Assembly (NCBI RefSeq): GCF_003335675.1
Contig: NZ_QPHL01000015.1
Span: 62,001 to 126,000, forward strand
Direction: 5' to 3'
Length of the DNA: 64,000 nt
From: Winogradskyella sp. KYW1333
GTDB taxonomy: Bacteria > Bacteroidota > Bacteroidia > Flavobacteriales > Flavobacteriaceae
In this document: positions 14,837-23,653 of the stretch, in pieces
Layout of the letters: each line of letters begins with the position of its first letter
Numbering within the stretch: the stretch's first letter is position 1
The notes under the pieces: generated by a model
Told to the model about the DNA's origin: nothing
Databases searched by the model: none
Seen by the model: only the letters and a program-made list of their open reading frames with translations
Position numbers and translations under genes: made by a program

Positions 14837-14956
14837 TTAAGCGACAACCTTTGCTTTCTCCTTTAAAGTTTCAAGATGCTTTACCATATTGCTTTTACAC
14901 CATACCTCTTGTTTTATTGTTGGTGGATGACCAATAGCCTTGGTTAACTCTTCCAT
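14837..14956 (-). pseudogene. Short coding remnant (C-terminal fragment) at island edge
   Basis: An open frame of 39 codons (MEELTKAIGHPPTIKQ at its start, ending KEKAKVVA) has protein-like composition but no recognisable family. It runs into the start of the truncated recombinase on the other strand. I read it as the tail of a gene cut by the rearrangement that also removed the recombinase N-terminus. It could also be noise. Confidence 0.3.
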
Positions 14957-15584
14957 CAACCAAAGTATCAACAGTATAAAATTTTATTATGAGGTTGTTC
15001 TTGGCATGCCAAACAGGTTCTACGAGATTGAAAGGCCTAGAAAAGACAGAAAATTACCAACGGTCCTTTCAAAAAATGAAGTGATTGAACTTATCGATGC
15101 TACTAATAACTTAAAGCATAGATGCATACTGTCACTACTCTACTCATCTGGGTTGAGAAGGAGTGAATTGCTAAATCTCAAAATTAAGGACATTGACAGT
15201 CAAAGGATGTTGATTAAAGTTGAAAATTCTAAAGGGAACAAAGACCGTTACACTTTGCTAGGTGATAAAATGCTTAAAGAACTAAGGACGTACTACAGGG
15301 AATACCGCCCTAAAGAATACTTGTTCGAAGGGCAGACAAAACCGCAATATAGCGGAAGTAGTATTACTAAGATCATAGATTCTGCTGCCATGAAGATTGG
15401 CCTTAAAAAAAAGGTTACGGCACATACCTTGAGACACAGCTTTGCAACCCATTTATTGGAAAACGGAACGGATCTAAGGCATATCCAAGCATTACTGGGG
15501 CATAACTCAACAAAAACCACCGAAATTTACACCCATATTGCTTCCACAAGCTTTGATTACATTAAAAATCCGTTAGATTTGTAG
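14940..15584 (+). pseudogene. N-terminally truncated XerD-like tyrosine recombinase
   Basis: 214 codons from a TTG. The sequence begins inside the end of the SAM-like DNA-binding domain (INQSINSIKFYYEVV), so roughly 100-170 N-terminal residues are missing. The upstream frame is closed by TGA at 14928. The catalytic domain is complete: Arg of SSGLRRSELL, the Lys-containing beta-hairpin SKGNKDRY, HTLRHSFATHL, LGHNSTKTTEIYTHI with the catalytic Tyr. There is no extra IntI-specific insertion, so it is XerC/D-like. A GTTGTGC-ended palindrome follows 15 bases after the stop. Probably inactive without its N-terminal domain, though expression of the catalytic fragment cannot be excluded. Confidence 0.8.
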
Positions 15585-15599
15585 GTATAAACATAATGG

Positions 15600-15633
15600 G
15601 GCTAAACGTAATACGTTTAGCCAACTGTTGTGC
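15600..15633 (+). other. Recombination-site-like palindrome ending in GTTGTGC
   Basis: A perfect 11-base inverted repeat GGCTAAACGTA / TACGTTTAGCC (15600-15622, one-base loop) is followed 4 bases later by GTTGTGC (15627-15633). The same GTTGTGC core closes the hairpin at 23702-23769. It has no T-run, so it is not an obvious terminator for the recombinase. A GCACAAC lies in inverted orientation at 15661-15667. Candidate att site. Confidence 0.5.
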
Positions 15634-15736
15634 TTAATTTAGAATAACTGAAGAGAATCAGCACAACCATATTCATGGATGTCAAGTAAATACAACAGAA
15701 ATAAAACTTCTCATTAGGTTTTATAAAAATAAAGTG

Positions 15737-15744
15737 TACATTTG
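15737..15744 (+). promoter_or_regulatory. TAnnTTTG promoter element of the ilv operon
   Basis: TACATTTG lies 7 bases upstream of the first leader-peptide ATG. The predicted start of transcription would be at or next to that ATG, making the leader nearly leaderless. No clear TTG was seen at -33. Confidence 0.55.
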
Positions 15745-15751
15745 CACCTAA

Positions 15752-15814
15752 ATGAAAAACAGAAACATTATAGCATCTATTTTGGAAATCGTGATTATTA
15801 GTCACGAAAGATAA
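15752..15814 (+). CDS. ilv leader peptide 1 (attenuator)
   Basis: 20-residue ORF, sequence MKNRNIIASILEIVIISHER. It contains 6 Ile, 1 Leu and 1 Val, an unmistakable branched-chain amino acid bias. The stop TAA is followed at once by GGATG (15815-15819). GGATG can pair with CATCC of the downstream terminator stem. A ribosome stalled on the Ile codons would leave GGATG free to form an antiterminator; one that reaches the stop would cover it and allow termination. Called from composition and RNA logic, not homology. Confidence 0.85.
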   Translation: MKNRNIIASILEIVIISHER

Positions 15815-15842
15815 GGATGCCTATAAATGAAATATATTTATT

Positions 15843-15873
15843 AAAAGCCATCCAGTTAGGATGGCTTTTTTTT
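15843..15873 (+). terminator. Attenuator terminator 1 of the ilv operon
   Basis: Stem GCCATCC/GGATGGC with loop AGTTA, flanked by AAAA and followed by eight T residues. It is located 28 bases after the stop of leader peptide 1. It is a strong intrinsic terminator that competes with a GGATG-CATCC antiterminator pairing. Confidence 0.85.
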
Positions 15874-15899
15874 GATTAAAATTTCAGAATAAACAAACA

Positions 15900-15989
15900 A
15901 TGAAAACACAAAATTTAAATTCAATCTACTTGATGACTACTATAATAAGCAAAATTATTATTAGCATAATTATTTTACCGCCCAGGTGA
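15900..15989 (+). CDS. ilv leader peptide 2 (second attenuator)
   Basis: 29-residue ORF with 9 Ile and 3 Leu, including the run IISKIIISIIILPPR at its end. It begins 26 bases after terminator 1 with no clear TAnnTTTG promoter between, so the two leaders are probably read in series from one promoter. The stop TGA lies inside TGAGAA (15987-15992), which is complementary to TTCTCA in the 5' arm of terminator 2. This is the classical overlap of ribosome-at-stop and antiterminator. Confidence 0.88.
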   Translation: MKTQNLNSIYLMTTIISKIIISIIILPPR

Positions 15990-16014
15990 GAATGTAATTG
16001 TATTGATATAATAT

Positions 16015-16054
16015 AAAAGCCCTTCTCAAAAAATATGAGAAGGGCTTTTTTTTT
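16015..16054 (+). terminator. Attenuator terminator 2 of the ilv operon
   Basis: Stem GCCCTTCTCA/TGAGAAGGGC with a 7-base loop, flanked by AAAA and followed by nine T residues, ending 32 bases before ilvE. Together with leader peptide 2 it forms a second complete attenuator. Confidence 0.9.
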
Positions 16055-16086
16055 GACTAAAAAATTAATAAACACAAAATAAAAAA

Positions 16087-16953
16087 ATGTATTACAACAA
16101 AGAAACCCAAATATTTTTGGATGGCCAATGGATAAAAGCCCAAAATGGAAAAACGAATCTGTATAGTCAAACGCTACATTATGGAGCTGGTGTTTTTGAA
16201 GGGATTAGATCTTACAAAACAGATAAAGGCGCAAATATTTTTAAAGCTAAAGCACATTATGAAAGGTTGCATTATTCAGCAGAAAAAATGCACATCAATC
16301 TGAAGTATTCTGTTCAGGAATTAATTGATTTAAGTTATGAATTACTAGAAAGAAACCAATTGGAAGATGCTTATATCCGTCCTTTGGTTTATTTAGGCGA
16401 AAATATGTCTCTTCAACCCACAGAAGATGTTCACGTAATGCTTTGCGCTTGGCAATGGGGAAGATATTTAGGCGATACGCAGCTCAAATTAATGACTTCA
16501 TCTTTTCAGAGACCCAATCCAAAATCTTGTTTTGTAGAAGCCAAAGTAAGCGGTCATTACACCAATTCTTTATTGGCAACTACCGAAGCGAAGCAAAAAG
16601 GTTTTGATGAAGCTTTACTTTTGGATATGAACGAAAATGTGGCCGAAGGACCTGGAGCAAATTTCTTTTTTGAAAAAGACGAAAAATTATTTACTGCACC
16701 ATTGGGAAATATCCTTTCTGGTATAACACGACAAACTATTTTTGAATTAGCAGAAGATTTAGGTTTTGAAGTAGTAGAAAAGTTTTTTAAAGTTGAAGAA
16801 GTATATCAGGCAGATGGAGCCTTTTTCACAGGAACGGCAGCAGAAGTTGCTGCAATTGGAAGTTTGGACAATCACAGTTTCAATTTGCCTTGGGAAAAAA
16901 CTTTAGGCTATCAATTGGAAGATGCTTATCAAAAATGTGTTCATATAAAATAA
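16087..16953 (+). CDS. ilvE: Branched-chain amino acid aminotransferase
   Basis: 288-residue class IV PLP aminotransferase that interconverts Leu/Ile/Val and their 2-oxoacids. The PLP Lys lies in FVEAKVSGHYTNSLLAT near residue 155-160. The fold-type IV glycine and Glu signature is in NVAEGPGANFFF near residue 183. N-terminal landmarks are the substrate-entry HYGAGVFEGIRSY near residue 32. Length is normal. It is the first structural gene of the ilv operon, 32 bases after the second attenuator, with ilvD 6 bases downstream. Cytosolic. Confidence 0.95.
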   Translation: MYYNKETQIFLDGQWIKAQNGKTNLYSQTLHYGAGVFEGIRSYKTDKGANIFKAKAHYERLHYSAEKMHINLKYSVQELIDLSYELLERNQLEDAYIRPLVYLGENMSLQPTEDVHVMLCAWQWGRYLGDTQLKLMTSSFQRPNPKSCFVEAKVSGHYTNSLLATTEAKQKGFDEALLLDMNENVAEGPGANFFFEKDEKLFTAPLGNILSGITRQTIFELAEDLGFEVVEKFFKVEEVYQADGAFFTGTAAEVAAIGSLDNHSFNLPWEKTLGYQLEDAYQKCVHIK

Positions 16954-16959
16954 ATAAAA

Positions 16960-18636
16960 ATGGAATTAAATAAATACAGCAAACGCGTAACTCAAGACGA
17001 TTCGCAACCAGCTGCAAAAGCAATGTTGCACGCAATCGGCTTAACAAAAGAAGATTTTAGTAAACCTTTTGTGGGCATTGCTAGCACGGGTTATGAAGGT
17101 AACCCTTGTAATATGCACCTCAACGATTTAGCACTTGAAGTTAAGCACGGTACCAAAAACGCCAATTTAGTAGGTTTAATATACAACACTATTGGTGTAA
17201 GTGACGGTATTTCTATGGGAACTCCAGGAATGAGATATTCATTACCATCAAGAGATGTAATCGCAGATTCTATGGAAACAGTAGTGGAAGGAATGTCTTA
17301 TGACGCATTGGTAACAGTTGTTGGTTGCGACAAAAATATGCCTGGCGCATTAATGGCCATGCTCAGAACAAACCGACCAGGCGTTTTGGTTTATGGTGGA
17401 ACTATCGCATCTGGTTGTCACAAAGATAAAAAACTAGATGTAGTTTCTGCTTTTGAAGCCTGGGGACAAAAAGTAGCAGGTAAAATAGATGAAAAAGAAT
17501 ATCAAAATGTAATAGAAAAAGCATGTCCTGGAGCTGGTGCTTGTGGCGGAATGTACACAGCAAACACTATGGCATCTGCTATTGAAGCTTTGGGAATGTC
17601 TTTGCCATACAATTCTTCAAACCCAGCCTTAGGAAAAGAGAAAAAAGTAGAAAGTATAAAGGCTGGTGAAGCCGTTCGTTTATTGCTTGAAAAAGACATT
17701 AAACCAAAAGACATTGTTACCAAAAAAGCATTAGAAAATGCCATAAGATTAGTAATGATAATGGGCGGCTCTACCAATGCCGTATTACACTTTTTGGCAA
17801 TTGCCAGAACTGCTGAAGTGGAATTTACCTTAGATGATTTTCAAAGAATAGCAGATACAACTCCTTTTTTAGCAGACTTGAAACCAAGCGGACAGTTTTT
17901 GATGGAAGACGTTCACGAAATTGGTGGAATTCCTGCGGTTTTAAAATATTTATTGAAAAACGGTTTATTACACGGAGATTGTTTAACCGTTACAGGAAAA
18001 ACTTTAGCCGAAAATCTTGAAAACGTTCCAGACTTAAAAGCCGGTCAACAAATTATAAAACCATTAGAAAATCCTATAAAAGAAATGGGGCATTTAAGAA
18101 TACTGAGAGGAAATTTATCGCCAAAAGGTGCTGTTGCAAAAATTACAGGAAAAGAAGGTCTTCAATTTACTGGAACTGCAAAAGTGTTTGATTCAGAATA
18201 TGAAGCCAATGATGGAATTCGAGATGGAAAAGTAGTAAAAGGAGATGTCGTAGTTATAAGGTATGAAGGGCCAAAAGGTGGTCCAGGGATGCCTGAAATG
18301 CTTAAACCTACTGCGGCAATTATTGGTGCTGGTTTGGGAAATGACGTTGCCTTAATAACTGACGGTAGATTTTCAGGTGGAACACACGGCTTTGTAGTAG
18401 GCCACATTTCACCAGAAGCACAAGTTGGTGGACCGATTGCTTTTGTACGAAATGGTGATAAAATAACCATTGATGCTATAAAAAATACCATTGATTTTGA
18501 AATTTCAAAAGAAGAATTAGCAAAACGAAAAGCCAACTGGAAACAACCCGATTTAAAACACAAAAAAGGCGTATTGTATAAATATGCACGATCGGTTTCG
18601 TGTGCATCTGAAGGATGTGTTACAGATGAATTTTAA
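16960..18636 (+). CDS. ilvD: Dihydroxy-acid dehydratase
   Basis: 558-residue IlvD/Edd-family Fe-S dehydratase converting 2,3-dihydroxy-isovalerate or -methylvalerate to the 2-oxoacid. Cluster-ligand cysteines are visible in [22 protein letters not shown] and [14 protein letters not shown]. The C-terminal signature is [26 protein letters not shown] near residue 465. Length matches the family. It lies between ilvE and ilvB with 6- and 21-base gaps, in the third-step position of Ile/Val synthesis. Confidence 0.97.
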
Positions 18637-18657: not shown

Positions 18658-20379
18658 ATGGAAGAATTAGCAATAAAAACGACAACAAAACAACAAGTAA
18701 TGACTGGCTCGCAAGCTGTCGTTCATTCACTTATAGCAGAAGGAATTGATTTAATATTTGGCTATCCAGGCGGAGCAATTATGCCTGTTTATGATGCACT
18801 TTATGATGTAGAAGCTAAGTTAACACACATTTTAACCAGACACGAACAAGGCGCAACACACGCAGCACAAGGCTATGCCAGAGCAACAGGAAAAGTGGGT
18901 GTTTGCTTAGCTACCTCAGGGCCTGGAGCTACCAATTTAATTACTGGAATAGCAGATGCACAAATAGACTCTACGCCATTGGTGTGTATTACGGGACAAG
19001 TAGCAAGTCATTTATTAGGCACAGATGCTTTTCAGGAAACGGATATTATTGGTATTTCAATGCCTGTTACCAAATGGAATTTTCAGGTAACTAAAGCAGA
19101 AGAAATTCCTTATGCTTTAGCAAAAGCTTTTTATATAGCAAGAACAGGAAGACCAGGTCCCGTTTTGGTAGATATTACTAAAGATGCTCAATTTGAAACG
19201 CTTGATTTTGAGTATAAACCTTTTAAAGGAATGAGAAGTTATGTGCCAACTCCTCAATTAGATTTAGAAAAAGTAAAAGAAGCCGCAGTATTGATTAATG
19301 CTGCCAAAAAACCACTTGTTTTGTTTGGGCAAGGTGTGCTTTTGGCAGAAGCCGAAAAAGAGTTTAAAGCATTTATAGAAAAGGCGGATTTGCCTTCGGC
19401 TTGGACCATTATGGGTTTGTCGGCCTTAGATTCTGACCATAATCTGAATGTAGGAATGTTGGGAATGCATGGCAATTACGCACCCAATAAATTGACCAAT
19501 GAATGTGATGTTTTGATAGCAGTAGGTATGCGTTTTGACGATAGAGTTACTGGTGACTTAAGCAGATATGCCAAGCAAGCAAAAGTGATTCATTTGGAAA
19601 TAGATCCTGCGGAAGTTAATAAAAATGTAAAAACAGATGTTGCCGTTTTGGGAAATGCTAAAGAAAGTTTAAGTGCATTAACTGAATTAATTAATGAAAA
19701 CGAACATGAAAATTGGCTGGCAAAATTCAGAAATTTAGAAAAAGAAGAGTTTGATGAAGTGGTCAAAGATGACCTTAATCCGACAACAGAATTGATGACA
19801 ATGGGTGAAGTGATGGATAAAATAAACCTTCATTCGGATCAAAAAAACATTATTGTAACAGATGTTGGGCAACACCAAATGGTAGCTTGCCGATATGCCA
19901 AATTTAAACAAACACGTTCCTTAATAACTTCTGGAGGCTCGGGAACTATGGGCTTTTGCTTGCCAGCTGCCATTGGTGCAAAAATGGGAAGACCAGATGC
20001 ACAAGTTATTGGAATTATTGGAGATGGTGGTTTTCAAATGACCATTCAAGAATTAGGAACAATTTTTCAGTTTAAAACTGCAGTAAAAATTGTAGTTATG
20101 AATAATGAATTTTTAGGAATGGTAAGGCAATGGCAAGAGCTGTTTTTTGAAAAAAGATATGCCTCAACTACTATGGTCAATCCAGATTTTCAAACCATAG
20201 TAAATGGCTATGGAATTAAAACTAAAAAGGTAGAAAAAAGAGAAGATTTAGAAGCAGCAGTAAAAGAAATGTTGGCGCACGAAGGTTCGTATTTTCTTGA
20301 AGTGATGGTTGGGAAAGAAAACAATGTATTTCCAATGATAGCAACTGGTGCATCTGTTTCAGACATAAGATTAAAATAA
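18658..20379 (+). CDS. ilvB: Acetolactate synthase large (catalytic) subunit
   Basis: 573-residue ThDP enzyme that condenses pyruvate with pyruvate or 2-oxobutyrate, the first common step of Val/Leu and Ile synthesis. Landmarks are the ThDP-activating Glu in LTHILTRHEQGATHAAQGYAR near residue 61, the FAD-binding middle domain, and GDGGFQMTIQELGT (ThDP/Mg motif) near residue 458. It is followed 4 bases later by the regulatory subunit ilvN. Length and motifs are those of the biosynthetic (AHAS) rather than the catabolic enzyme. Confidence 0.97.
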   Translation: MEELAIKTTTKQQVMTGSQAVVHSLIAEGIDLIFGYPGGAIMPVYDALYDVEAKLTHILTRHEQGATHAAQGYARATGKVGVCLATSGPGATNLITGIADAQIDSTPLVCITGQVASHLLGTDAFQETDIIGISMPVTKWNFQVTKAEEIPYALAKAFYIARTGRPGPVLVDITKDAQFETLDFEYKPFKGMRSYVPTPQLDLEKVKEAAVLINAAKKPLVLFGQGVLLAEAEKEFKAFIEKADLPSAWTIMGLSALDSDHNLNVGMLGMHGNYAPNKLTNECDVLIAVGMRFDDRVTGDLSRYAKQAKVIHLEIDPAEVNKNVKTDVAVLGNAKESLSALTELINENEHENWLAKFRNLEKEEFDEVVKDDLNPTTELMTMGEVMDKINLHSDQKNIIVTDVGQHQMVACRYAKFKQTRSLITSGGSGTMGFCLPAAIGAKMGRPDAQVIGIIGDGGFQMTIQELGTIFQFKTAVKIVVMNNEFLGMVRQWQELFFEKRYASTTMVNPDFQTIVNGYGIKTKKVEKREDLEAAVKEMLAHEGSYFLEVMVGKENNVFPMIATGASVSDIRLK

Positions 20380-20383
20380 AACT

Positions 20384-20920
20384 ATGGAAAAGAAAAGATT
20401 TACAATATCCGTATTTACAGAAGATGTAGTGGGAATACTCAATAGAGTGTCAATAATTTTTACAAGAAGGAAAATAAATGTAGAAAGTATTGCTGCGTCT
20501 GAAAGCGAAATTAAGGGAATTTACAGATATACAATTGTAATAACAGAAACAGAAGACCAAGTAAAAAAAGTGGTAGGTCAACTGGAAAAACAAGTAGAAG
20601 TGGTGAAAGCTGTTTTTCATCCTGATGATGAAACTGTGCACCAAGAAATAGCACTTTACAAAGTGAAAACAGGTGTTTTGGCCTCTGGTGGAAATGCAGA
20701 AAAAATTGTGCGTTCACATAATGCAAGAGTTTTATCTGTAGAAACGGAATTTACAGTTTTAGAAAAAACGGGACACAAAGAAGAAACACAACAATTATTT
20801 GATGATTTAAAACCTTTCGGAATATTGGAATTTGTACGTTCTGGAAGAGTTGCTATTACCAAACCAATGAAAACATTATCGTCAATAGTAGAACAATTAG
20901 AAGGATTAGTAAAAAATTAA
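20384..20920 (+). CDS. ilvN: Acetolactate synthase small (regulatory) subunit
   Basis: 178 residues: N-terminal ACT domain ([20 protein letters not shown], residues 3-22, and [14 protein letters not shown]) and a C-terminal ALS small-subunit domain from about residue 90. It binds valine and activates and feedback-inhibits IlvB. Length is typical of the IlvH/IlvN family. It is placed 4 bases from ilvB and 4 bases from ilvC. Confidence 0.95.
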
Positions 20921-20924
20921 AAAA

Positions 20925-22397
20925 ATGGAAAATTATTTCAATACATTATCATTTCGAGAGCAATTAGCACAATTAGGAAAATGTGATTTTATGGATGCCT
21001 CAGAATTTACAAATGGCGTAAGTGCTTTAAAAGGGAAAAAGATTGTCATTATAGGTTGTGGCGCACAAGGTTTAAACCAAGGTTTAAATATGCGAGATTC
21101 TGGTTTAGATGTTTCTTTCACTTTAAGAGAAAGTGCTATAAAAGAGCGAAGACAATCTTTTAAAAATGCAAATGAAAACAAATTTAAGGTTGGAACTTAT
21201 AAAGAAATGATACCAACCGCAGATTTGGTTATAAACCTCACGCCTGATAAACAACATACCGATGTGGTAAGTAAAATAATGCCTTTAATGAAAAAAGGAG
21301 CAGCTTTATCTTATTCTCACGGTTTCAATATTGTAGAAGAAGGAATGAAAATAAGGGAAGATTTAACAGTAATAATGATGGCTCCAAAATCGCCTGGTTC
21401 GGAATTAAGAGAAGAATATAAAAGAAATTTTGGTGTACCCACTTTGATTGCTGTTCATCCAGAAAACGACCCGAAAAATGAAGGACTTGAATTAGCAAAA
21501 GCCTATGCCGTTGCCACTGGTGGAGATAAAGCTGGTGTGTTACATTCTTCTTTCGTAGCTGAAGTAAAATCAGATTTAATGGGCGAACAAACCATACTTT
21601 GTGGCGTGTTGCAATCAGCATCTATACTTTGCTTTGATAAAATGTTAGAGAAAGGACTAGAGGCAGGTTATGCTGCAAAACTCATTCAATATGGCTGGGA
21701 AACTTTGACAGAAGCCTTAAAGCAAGGAGGCTTAACTAATATGATGGACAGACTTTCAAATCCTGCAAAAGTAAAAGCATACGAACTGGCAGAGGAATTA
21801 AAAACAATTATGACACCTTTATTTAACAAACATATGGACGATATTATGTCAGGAGAATTTTCAAAAAGGATGATGAAAGATTGGAAAAATAATGACAAAG
21901 ATTTGTTGAACTGGAGAAAAGCAACTGGCGAAACCGTTTTTGAGCAAACAAAAGCAACAGACGCTTTCATTAGTGAGCAAGAGTTTTTTGATAATGGAAC
22001 TTTATTAGCAGCTTTCATAAAAGCAGGTGTAGAATTGGCTTATGAAACTATGACAGCTTCAGGAATAAAAGCAGAATCTGCTTATTACGAATCACTGCAC
22101 GAAGCACCATTAATTGCCAATACACTAGCTCGAAAAAAACTATATGAAATGAACAGAGTTATTTCTGATACCGCAGAATATGGCTGTTATTTATTTGATC
22201 ATGCTTGTAAACCATTATTAGCCAATTTTATGACAAACATAGAAACACGTTTAATAGGAAAACAATTTTCAATAGATAATCAAGTGGATAATAAAAAATT
22301 AATAGCAGTAAATCAAGCTTTGAGAAATCATCCAATAGAAAAAATAGGTGCGACTTTGAGAACTTCTATGAGCGCAATGCAAAAACTAAAAAAATGA
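20925..22397 (+). CDS. ilvC: Ketol-acid reductoisomerase, class II (long form)
   Basis: 490 residues, the length of the E. coli-type class II enzyme with a duplicated helical C-terminal domain. NAD(P)-binding Rossmann motif [17 protein letters not shown] near residue 45, with Arg in LRESA as a likely NADPH-phosphate contact. Metal-binding Asp/Glu residues lie in the knotted domain ([17 protein letters not shown] near residue 211). Catalyses acetolactate or acetohydroxybutyrate to dihydroxy acids. The ilvA ATG overlaps its stop by 4 bases. Confidence 0.96.
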
Positions 22398-23653
22398 CCT
22401 CAGAAACTCAATATATTACTTTAGAAAACGTGAAAAAAGCAGCATCTCTTTTAAGAGATGTTGTTTTGGAAACGCCATTACAAAAAAATCAGTATTTGTC
22501 TGAAAAATATGAGGCTAATATTGTTTTTAAACGAGAAGATTTACAAGGCGTTCGTTCTTATAAAATAAGAGGAGCTTATCATAAAATTTCATCATTAACT
22601 GGCGAAGAATTAGAGCAAGGAGTCGTTTGTGCCAGTGCAGGAAATCACGCGCAAGGTGTTGCTTTTTCTTGTAAAGCAAAAAAAATAAAGGGTGTTATAT
22701 TTATGCCAACGATTACACCCAATCAAAAAATAGAACAAGTAAAAATGTTTGGCGGAGATTATGTAGAAGTGGTTTTAAATGGCGATACTTATGATGATGC
22801 TTCTTATGCAGCCACAGATTATTGCAAAGAAAAAAAGATGTCTTTTGTACATCCTTTTCACGATATAAAAGTAATAGAAGGGCAAGCAACCATTGCTTTA
22901 GAAATATTAGCACAAAGCAAAACACCTGTAGATTATTTGTTTTTGCCTGTTGGTGGTGGTGGTTTGGCTGCTGGTGTTTCCAGTATATTTAAAGAACTTT
23001 CTCCCAACACAAAAATTATAGGTGTTGAACCAAAAGGCGCAGCTTCAATGTCTGTTTCAATAACTAATGGATTTAACACAAAAATAGAAAACATAGATAA
23101 ATTTACTGATGGCGCATCTGTCCAAAAAGTAGGTGATTTAAACTTTGAAATTTGTAAAGAAAATTTAGACGAAATGGTAACCGTTCACGAAGGAAAAGTG
23201 TGCCAAACTATTTTAGATTTGTACAATAAAAACGCTATTGTGGTTGAACCTGCTGGTGCGTTAACCACAGCAGTTTTAGACCAGTTTTCTACTGAAATAA
23301 AAGGTAAAAATGTAGTTTGTTTAATTAGTGGCTCAAATAATGACATTACTCGAACAGAAGAAATAAAAGAGCGTGCTTTGCTTCATTCTGGACACAAACA
23401 TTATTTCATCATAAAATTTCCGCAAAGAGCAGGTGCTTTACTAGAGTTTTTAAATGATATTTTAGGTCCAAATGATGATATTACCCATTTTGAATATTCC
23501 AAAAAACACAACAGAAATTCAGGTCCAGCCATTGTTGGTTTAGAAATAAGTAACCCAAGGGATTTAGACGGACTGATTCTAAAAATGAAAACAAAAAATT
23601 TCTTTGGAGAATATTTGAATGATAAGCCAGATTTGTTTCAAGTTTTGATTTAG
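22394..23653 (+). CDS. ilvA: Threonine ammonia-lyase (biosynthetic threonine deaminase)
   Basis: 419 residues. PLP Lys lies in [14 protein letters not shown] near residue 56, the glycine-rich PLP phosphate loop in [12 protein letters not shown] near residue 183, and one C-terminal ACT-like regulatory domain covers about residues 330-419 ([21 protein letters not shown]). It makes 2-oxobutyrate for isoleucine. One ACT-like domain, rather than the two of E. coli IlvA, is the shorter form. It is the last gene of the operon and starts inside the ilvC stop (ATGA). Confidence 0.94.

Follow-up and report, generated by a model that had tools for sequence, protein, structure and literature searches.

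Classical ribosome-mediated attenuators are those of the E. coli trp, his, and ilvGMEDA operons, and attenuation has reportedly been the subject of a comparative study by Lopatovskaya et al., 2010. Tandem T-boxes and tandem riboswitches also exist. Tandem riboswitches are described in the available part of PMC5912903, and the trp attenuation mechanism in that of PMC3641672, a paper on the Salmonella mgtCBR operon whose authors present its tandem attenuators as a singular example responding to different signals. In the same family as the bacterium studied here, the accessible text on Flavobacterium psychrophilum reports strong hints of leader-peptide attenuation in front of amino-acid biosynthesis operons (PMC9723704). 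Our literature search, which covered titles and abstracts mostly from outside the subscription journals, found no paper on serial attenuators that sense the same amino-acid signal.

Here, we analyzed the sequence upstream of the ilvEDBNCA operon in a 64,000-nt stretch of DNA (the window) from Winogradskyella sp. KYW1333. Sequence analysis indicates that this operon is very probably guarded by two ribosome-mediated attenuators in series, which would respond mainly to one signal (Ile, with some Val) and steepen repression.

Results

Two leader ORFs, each followed by a predicted terminator, precede ilvE

The source of the window is contig C7 of a 2.8-Mb genome. A first-pass annotation of the window had proposed that two leader ORFs, each with a terminator and with bases at its stop codon complementary to that terminator, lie in front of ilvE. 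We re-derived this arrangement from the sequence and confirmed it. Between 15737 and 16086, there are successively a TACATTTG box, leader ORF 1, terminator T1, leader ORF 2, and terminator T2, and ilvE starts at 16087. The features are as follows.

15714-15718, + strand: TTAGG, a -33-like element, 18 nt upstream of the -7 box (from the sequence)
15737-15744, + strand: TACATTTG, a -7 box of the Bacteroidota sigma-A type, the sole TAnnTTTG in 15581-16086
15752-15814, + strand: leader ORF 1, MKNRNIIASILEIVIISHER, with a predicted 5' UTR of ~3 nt (near-leaderless), aligned with relatives
15789-15807, + strand: protector/pause hairpin of module 1, TCGTGA..TCACGA around the V-I-I codons (from folding)
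15815-15822, + strand: region 2 of module 1 (antiterminator strand), GGATGCCT, pairing with the 5' arm of T1 (duplex -8.4 kcal/mol)
15843-15873, + strand: terminator T1, with an 11-bp stem and a 5-nt loop (15843-15869) and a T run (hairpin -15.7 kcal/mol)
15900-15989, + strand: leader ORF 2, MKTQNLNSIYLMTTIISKIIISIIILPPR, with an alternative inner start at 15933
15973-15991, + strand: possible protector hairpin of module 2, TTTTACC/GGTGAGA (from folding; fixed-column support is weak in type D)
15987-15992, + strand: region 2 of module 2 (antiterminator strand), TGAGAA, pairing with the 5' arm of T2 (duplex -6.4 kcal/mol)
16015-16054, + strand: terminator T2, with a 14-bp stem and a 7-nt loop (16015-16049) and a T run (hairpin -20.6 kcal/mol)

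Leader 1 is 20 aa long, with six Ile, one Leu, and one Val (8/20 residues), and leader 2 is 29 aa long, with nine Ile and three Leu but without Val (12/29). The start of leader 2 at 15900 is preserved in the two closest relatives (L114 and L115); the detector described below took the inner ATG at 15933. The T1 core consists of GCCATCC (15847-15853) and GGATGGC (15859-15865) followed by eight T, and the T2 core of GCCCTTCTCA (16019-16028) and TGAGAAGGGC (16036-16045) followed by nine T. In both modules, the segment at the stop codon is complementary to the 5' arm of its own terminator. Indeed, GGATG directly follows the TAA of leader 1, and TGAGAA contains the TGA of leader 2. As in classical attenuators, predicted intrinsic terminators separate the leader ORFs from the first structural gene.

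A scan of both strands of 15580-16200 found four terminator-like sites vs 0.2 expected, T2 being counted on each strand. We then searched for modules with a detector that required an ATG-initiated ORF of 8-45 residues containing at least five Ile/Leu/Val (at least 33%), followed by a terminator. None of 2000 dinucleotide shuffles of the 342-nt segment 15745-16086 held even one leader-terminator module. In 1365 strand-kb of sequence flanking the loci of the named relatives, there were 11 modules and no tandem pair (within 300 nt), module counts here and below being approximate and probably low because the detector misses some leaders. For example, a second, type D terminator in L038 lacks an ORF that passes the detector, and in L118 the ORF that the detector assigned to module 1 is the wrong one.

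Tandem T-box or riboswitch elements might be mistaken for leader-peptide attenuators and do occur in nature, but no Rfam family matches the window at the gathering score, and we find such elements barely conceivable here. Below that threshold there were 39 matches up to E = 10, mostly presumed chance, including Thr_leader (25.2 bits) and Phe_leader (26.1 bits). The best of them, L10_leader (34.3 bits vs 44) and SNORA41 (34.2 vs 80), were taken as chance.

The operon and its neighborhood

The modules lie in front of the following genes.

16087-16953, + strand: ilvE, branched-chain amino acid transaminase, first gene of the operon (NCBIfam TIGR01122 and NF005146, over cut-off)
16960-18636, + strand: ilvD, dihydroxy-acid dehydratase (TIGR00110, over cut-off)
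18658-20379, + strand: ilvB, acetolactate synthase large subunit (TIGR00118, over cut-off)
20384-20920, + strand: ilvN, acetolactate synthase small subunit (TIGR00119, over cut-off)
20925-22397, + strand: ilvC, ketol-acid reductoisomerase (NF003557 and TIGR00465, over cut-off)
22394-23653, + strand: ilvA, threonine ammonia-lyase (TIGR02079 and NF006390, over cut-off)

IlvE of the window (16087-16953) shares 90 and 83% identity with the IlvE proteins from two other genera and at most 59% with those found in its own genus. Because it is closer to other genera than to its own, the ilv operon and the attenuator array may have been acquired jointly. Directly upstream, at 14940-15584, is the gene for a 214-aa tyrosine recombinase, whose best matches start ~60 residues into XerA/XerD-like models and whose N-terminal part appears to be missing. 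The same genome has a second ilvD-B-N-C-A-like operon on contig C9 (L210:3001-9808), in which ilvD and ilvA were identified by NCBIfam and the middle genes by size and order only. The module scan found no attenuator module upstream of this second operon.

Tandem modules recur upstream of ilvE and ilvD in related bacteria

To collect relatives, we searched for IlvE in 68 genomes of the genus (eight others with IlvE, 54-59% identity) and 397 genomes of the family (27 with IlvE at E <= 1e-90, including the window's own), and added the best 80 named IlvD loci. This gave 115 upstream regions, of which six were dropped because they had too little upstream sequence (L037, L104, and L126) or were duplicates (L103, L110, and L123). 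The remaining 109 regions comprise the window and its best-scoring IlvE/IlvD relatives, i.e. the nearest ones and no random sample of the family. Within this set, at least one module was found in 76/109 regions, at least two in 42, and three in 3 (L127, L128, and L132). No module was found in 33 regions, and 34 of the 76 module-bearing loci have just one. The ilvE-first loci have three modules in 3 cases, two in 27, one in 14, and none in 5, and the ilvD-first loci two in 12, one in 20, and none in 28. All 42 arrays precede ilvE or ilvD, which is a consequence of the choice of loci. Carriers of two modules include Tenacibaculum, Gelidibacter, Bizionia arctica, and Aquimarina, and Ile/Leu/Val-rich leaders resembling those of the window were found in 75 other loci. 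Loss of the Ile-rich frames or of the stem complementarity in relatives had been named in the first-pass annotation as grounds for giving up its proposal; both are kept.

A wider sample, scanned with a laxer threshold, comprised 69 loci (29 returned by the search and 40 fetched) from the 124 of 296 genomes of the phylum with an IlvD; it includes the second ilvD of the window genome, a genome that occurs twice, and a locus that lacks upstream sequence. Two modules were detected in seven loci from six genomes. These are G386, which was already in the 109-region set, G659 and G712 from another family of the same order, G523 from another class, and G541 and G704 from the genus g128. When 12 genomes of g128 were scanned, two had two modules, eight had one, and two had none. 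The distant family f23 contributed 19 loci, 18 with a single module and one with none, so that single modules are the rule in those groups. The 18 loci of f23, which belongs to the same phylum, each have one ilvD leader (L151-L168) that closes with a VIG motif and a basic tail (YRPGK in many cases); most of these leaders are followed by a GCCTTCCC terminator.

When modules were sorted into types by their terminator core, the arrays fell into A-B (22 loci), C-D (6 loci, the window's type), E-E or E-other (10 loci), F-D (1 locus), and F-D-D (3 loci). In the 22 A-B arrays, like modules from different loci have mean identities of 76.5 and 74.9%, vs 64.6% for the two modules within a locus. The corresponding values in five of the six C-D arrays (L118 was left out) are 72.2 and 70.1% vs 63.9%. 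That like modules are closer between loci than the two modules are within a locus suggests that both are old and have been inherited together, kept since before these lineages split. L127, L128, and L132 represent a natural triple attenuator, in which modules 2 and 3 are 80-96% identical, a similarity that we read as a sign of recent tandem duplication.

Modules evidently do duplicate, and 34 of the 76 module-bearing loci make do with one, which raises the question whether only one module acts in the window while the other is a decayed or neutral duplicate persisting by descent. We consider this improbable, since both modules keep an ORF, a terminator, and a matched antiterminator across genera, and since the modules of A-B arrays resemble their counterparts in other loci more than each other.

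Each stop-codon segment is matched to its own terminator

We computed the pairing of the stop-codon segments with terminator 5' arms in 121 modules. Segments pair with their own arm at a mean of -9.85 kcal/mol and with arms from other loci at -6.52 kcal/mol. For 83% of modules the own duplex is in the best tenth of 50 segment shuffles, and 17% fall outside. Own pairing is better than crossed pairing in 38 of the 39 two-module loci, by a mean of 7.6 kcal/mol per locus, and in the window the own duplexes have energies of -8.4 and -6.4 kcal/mol vs -5.8 and -3.4 kcal/mol for the crossed ones. Each antiterminator is predicted to be mutually exclusive with its terminator, as in classical attenuators. 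Taken together, anatomy, conservation, and the preference for own over crossed pairing support well the proposal of two complete attenuators in series.

The ends of the leaders fold better than shuffled sequences (mean z -1.85, n = 121, 45% at p <= 0.05), and the mean z for the first 45 nt of the same ORFs is +0.76. RNAalifold, when applied to leader ends, produced structures for types B and E but zero energy for types A and D, in which registers shift, and we therefore counted named structures instead. In type B (31 modules), 96.4% of the cells in the protector hairpin and terminator are paired, and 8/19 pairs are changed on both sides (0/500 shuffles). The type B antiterminator overlaps both the protector hairpin and the terminator arm in its bases and has 98.6% of its cells paired; this is reached by 164/500 column shuffles, an uninformative control because the terminator arm barely varies. 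The leader-end hairpin was assessed in 24 type C/A modules, hand-chosen from the 47 modules of types A and C and including module 1 of the window. It has 84% of its cells paired (0/500) and 5/6 pairs changed on both sides (14/500), with further pair types reached by 99/500 shuffles. In type D (15 modules), to which module 2 of the window belongs, the terminator is 97.8% conserved and 83% of the cells of a six-pair antiterminator are paired, column shuffles again being uninformative (500/500). The type D protector hairpin, in fixed columns, has only 61% of its cells paired, and its both-side changes are reached by 148/500 shuffles.

Stalling near the leader end is predicted to favor the antiterminator

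Alternative folds had been suggested as a check by the first-pass annotation, and we computed them as a function of ribosome position. In brief, the RNA was cut before the 3' arm of the terminator, and the ribosome was taken to mask -15 to +12 around the A-site codon. In module 1, the number of expected antiterminator pairs is 7.1 on the ATC at stop-24, 4.6 on the ATT at -18, 4.1 on the ATT at -15, and 0.0 with the A site at the stop codon. In module 2, it is 7.4-9.4 from the ATT at -33 to the ATT at -15 (9.3 on the ATA at -21) and 0.3 at the stop codon; for stalls farther upstream in leader 2, from stop-57 to -42 and including two ATA codons, just 0.3-1.1 antiterminator pairs are predicted. 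The model thus predicts that the antiterminator forms when the ribosome stalls at the Ile codons closest to the hairpin and is lost at the stop codon. Without a ribosome, there are 2.0 (module 1) and 5.8 (module 2) expected antiterminator pairs, from which it follows that, in the absence of translation, repression would be stronger at module 1 than at module 2. The minimum free energies are -8.4 and -9.0 kcal/mol for the antiterminator segments vs -15.7 and -20.6 kcal/mol for the terminators. Because the antiterminator is far weaker than the terminator, the switch would have to be kinetic, with the antiterminator winning by forming first.

A single promoter probably serves both modules

In the accessible text on F. 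psychrophilum, TAnnTTTG is located at -12 to -5 (PMC9723704). This spacing would place the transcription start near 15749 and leave leader 1 a 5' UTR of ~3 nt. A relaxed promoter-like box, defined as one ending 4-13 nt before the ATG, was found for 43/76 first leaders vs 1/45 later leaders and predicts 5' UTRs 1-8 nt long; an exact TAnnTTTG was found within 58 nt upstream for 26/76 vs 1/45. In 13 of the 43 boxed first leaders, TTAGG lies 14-22 nt upstream of the box (spacings 18-20). Given that boxes precede many first leaders but almost no later ones, it is probably just the first of the two leaders that is near-leaderless.

A transcription start between T1 and leader 2 would have argued against the first-pass proposal. 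At the sequence level, the window lacks a TAnnTTTG in this interval, and 44 of the 45 spacers that lead from a terminator to the following leader are likewise free of one. The exception is Aquimarina sp. MMG016 (L074:3419-3758), where a promoter-like TTAGG..TAAATTTG lies just before the second leader. A separate promoter for later modules, found in this one spacer of the 45, was rejected. In ilvE-first A-B arrays, ~155-170 nt separate T2 from ilvE. A TAATTTTG box is seen ~20 nt before the ilvE ATG (in the 20-30-nt region) in L039, L043, L046, L120, and L121, and is perhaps a basal promoter bypassing the attenuators.

By composition, the Ile-rich peptides (18-29 residues) are reminiscent of small hydrophobic type I toxins. 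Leader 1 and T1 might accordingly be a separate small gene (for a peptide or an sRNA, e.g. a hydrophobic toxin-like one), the transcript of which T1 alone would end, leaving module 2 as the only one devoted to ilv. We give this very little credence in view of the box-free spacers described above. Moreover, leader 1 shares the stop-codon antiterminator logic, and tandem pairs, all 42 of which precede ilvE or ilvD at the loci chosen, were found nowhere else in the 1365 strand-kb of flanks.

Both modules are dominated by Ile

The first-pass annotation had considered that the two modules might sense Ile and Leu/Val separately. The compositions of the modules are alike across the 39 two-module arrays, with means for modules 1 and 2 of 6.3 and 6.6 Ile, 2.3 and 2.0 Val, and 1.0 and 0.8 Leu, respectively, and do not support such a division. 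The Ile codons of the leaders are mostly ATT. Composition does not point to units answering different signals in the manner of mgtCBR, both modules being Ile-dominated.

A two-input gate, in which leader 1 senses Ile and Val and leader 2 senses Ile or Ile and Leu, nevertheless has some basis in Val content. Leader 1 of the window has Val and leader 2 has none. A weaker asymmetry, though not a Leu/Val split, is found in the window's array type, Val occurring in 6/6 type C but 5/13 type D leaders of arrays; the last 12 codons of type D second leaders contain 0.3 Val on average (n = 10). Ile dominates both modules in all array types; in the commonest arrays, A-B, Val is present in 22/22 module 1 and 19/22 module 2 leaders; and Leu is scarce throughout (0.0-0.8 in the last 12 codons), both leaders of the window containing it. 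We regard serial attenuators that sense different amino acids as unlikely. In the window, module 2 may come nearer to sensing Ile alone, and the differences in Val allow a slightly different mix in this array, but not Ile vs Leu/Val.

Histidine operons of the same family have single modules

As a control, we examined hisG upstream regions in the same family. Exactly one His-leader module was found in 29/30 loci (L211-L240, from 30 of the 49 genomes with a hit), and none of the 30 had two, the remaining locus having a short flank. The window genome's own hisG (L271) also has one His-leader module, MKKHLHHRFHLVAQAR. Serial modules are therefore no general habit of the amino-acid operons of these genomes, as far as his shows. 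At leuA-like loci, 30/30 had no Ile/Leu/Val module, but leuA may not be the first gene there, which leaves his as the sole informative control.

Discussion

From the anatomy, conservation, and module-specific pairing described above, we infer stalling, termination, and a multiplied response, as follows. One promoter would start the RNA ~3 nt before leader 1. When Ile is sufficient, the ribosome would reach the stop codon of the leader and cover the antiterminator strand at or just after it, and the terminator would form. When Ile is scarce, the ribosome would stall on upstream Ile codons and open the protector hairpin, and the freed strand would pair with the 5' arm of the terminator, allowing the polymerase to read on. 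RNA polymerase would have to pass T1 and then T2, and because two successive escapes are needed, the escape probabilities would multiply, giving a tighter shut-off and a steeper response to one signal. Multiplied repression would be a natural consequence of the series.

On balance, we favor the broader view that attenuator arrays, composed of two or three units that share a signal and have their own matched antiterminators, are recurrent for branched-chain operons in Flavobacteriaceae and some distant Bacteroidota, and that they have grown by tandem duplication into a copy-number-tuned amplifier of Ile shortage, his operons being single. Same-signal attenuators in series would raise a single leaky switch to its second or third power with no need for a protein regulator, and since related bacteria naturally carry one, two, or three modules, the gain can be measured. 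Such arrays would also provide a concrete regulatory logic for amino-acid operons of Bacteroidota, for which the literature, in its accessible parts, gives just transcript-structure clues. In addition, the arrays show how switches duplicate and diverge with each antiterminator still matched to its own terminator.

The modules resemble classical E. coli attenuators in having a leader ORF rich in the regulatory amino acid, predicted antiterminator and terminator hairpins, and an intrinsic terminator before the first gene; a protector hairpin is likewise predicted, with support in types B and C/A (including module 1) but weak support in type D (module 2). They differ in that two to three complete units occur in series, almost no 5' UTR is predicted for the first leader, and the antiterminator strand lies at or just after the stop codon. 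Other leaders are similar in part. The available passages on structured 5' regions of F. psychrophilum make no mention of two attenuators in series (PMC9723704). The msrD leader, for which the phrase "two attenuators" is used in the accessible text, is also regulated through a leader peptide, but answers an antibiotic (a macrolide) and not amino-acid supply (PMC10314930). The rimP-leader of several Gammaproteobacteria has a second tandem terminator and a potential antiterminator for the upstream one, but is not described, in the part of PMC2965389 available, as an amino-acid-sensing leader peptide. Salmonella mgtCBR, as presented in the accessible part of PMC3641672, likewise has two short ORFs in one leader, each controlling elongation. 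However, mgtM and mgtP answer different signals (ATP and proline), whereas the two leaders here apparently answer one, and the mgtCBR stem-loops are unlike intrinsic terminators, whereas two strong intrinsic terminators are predicted upstream of ilvE.
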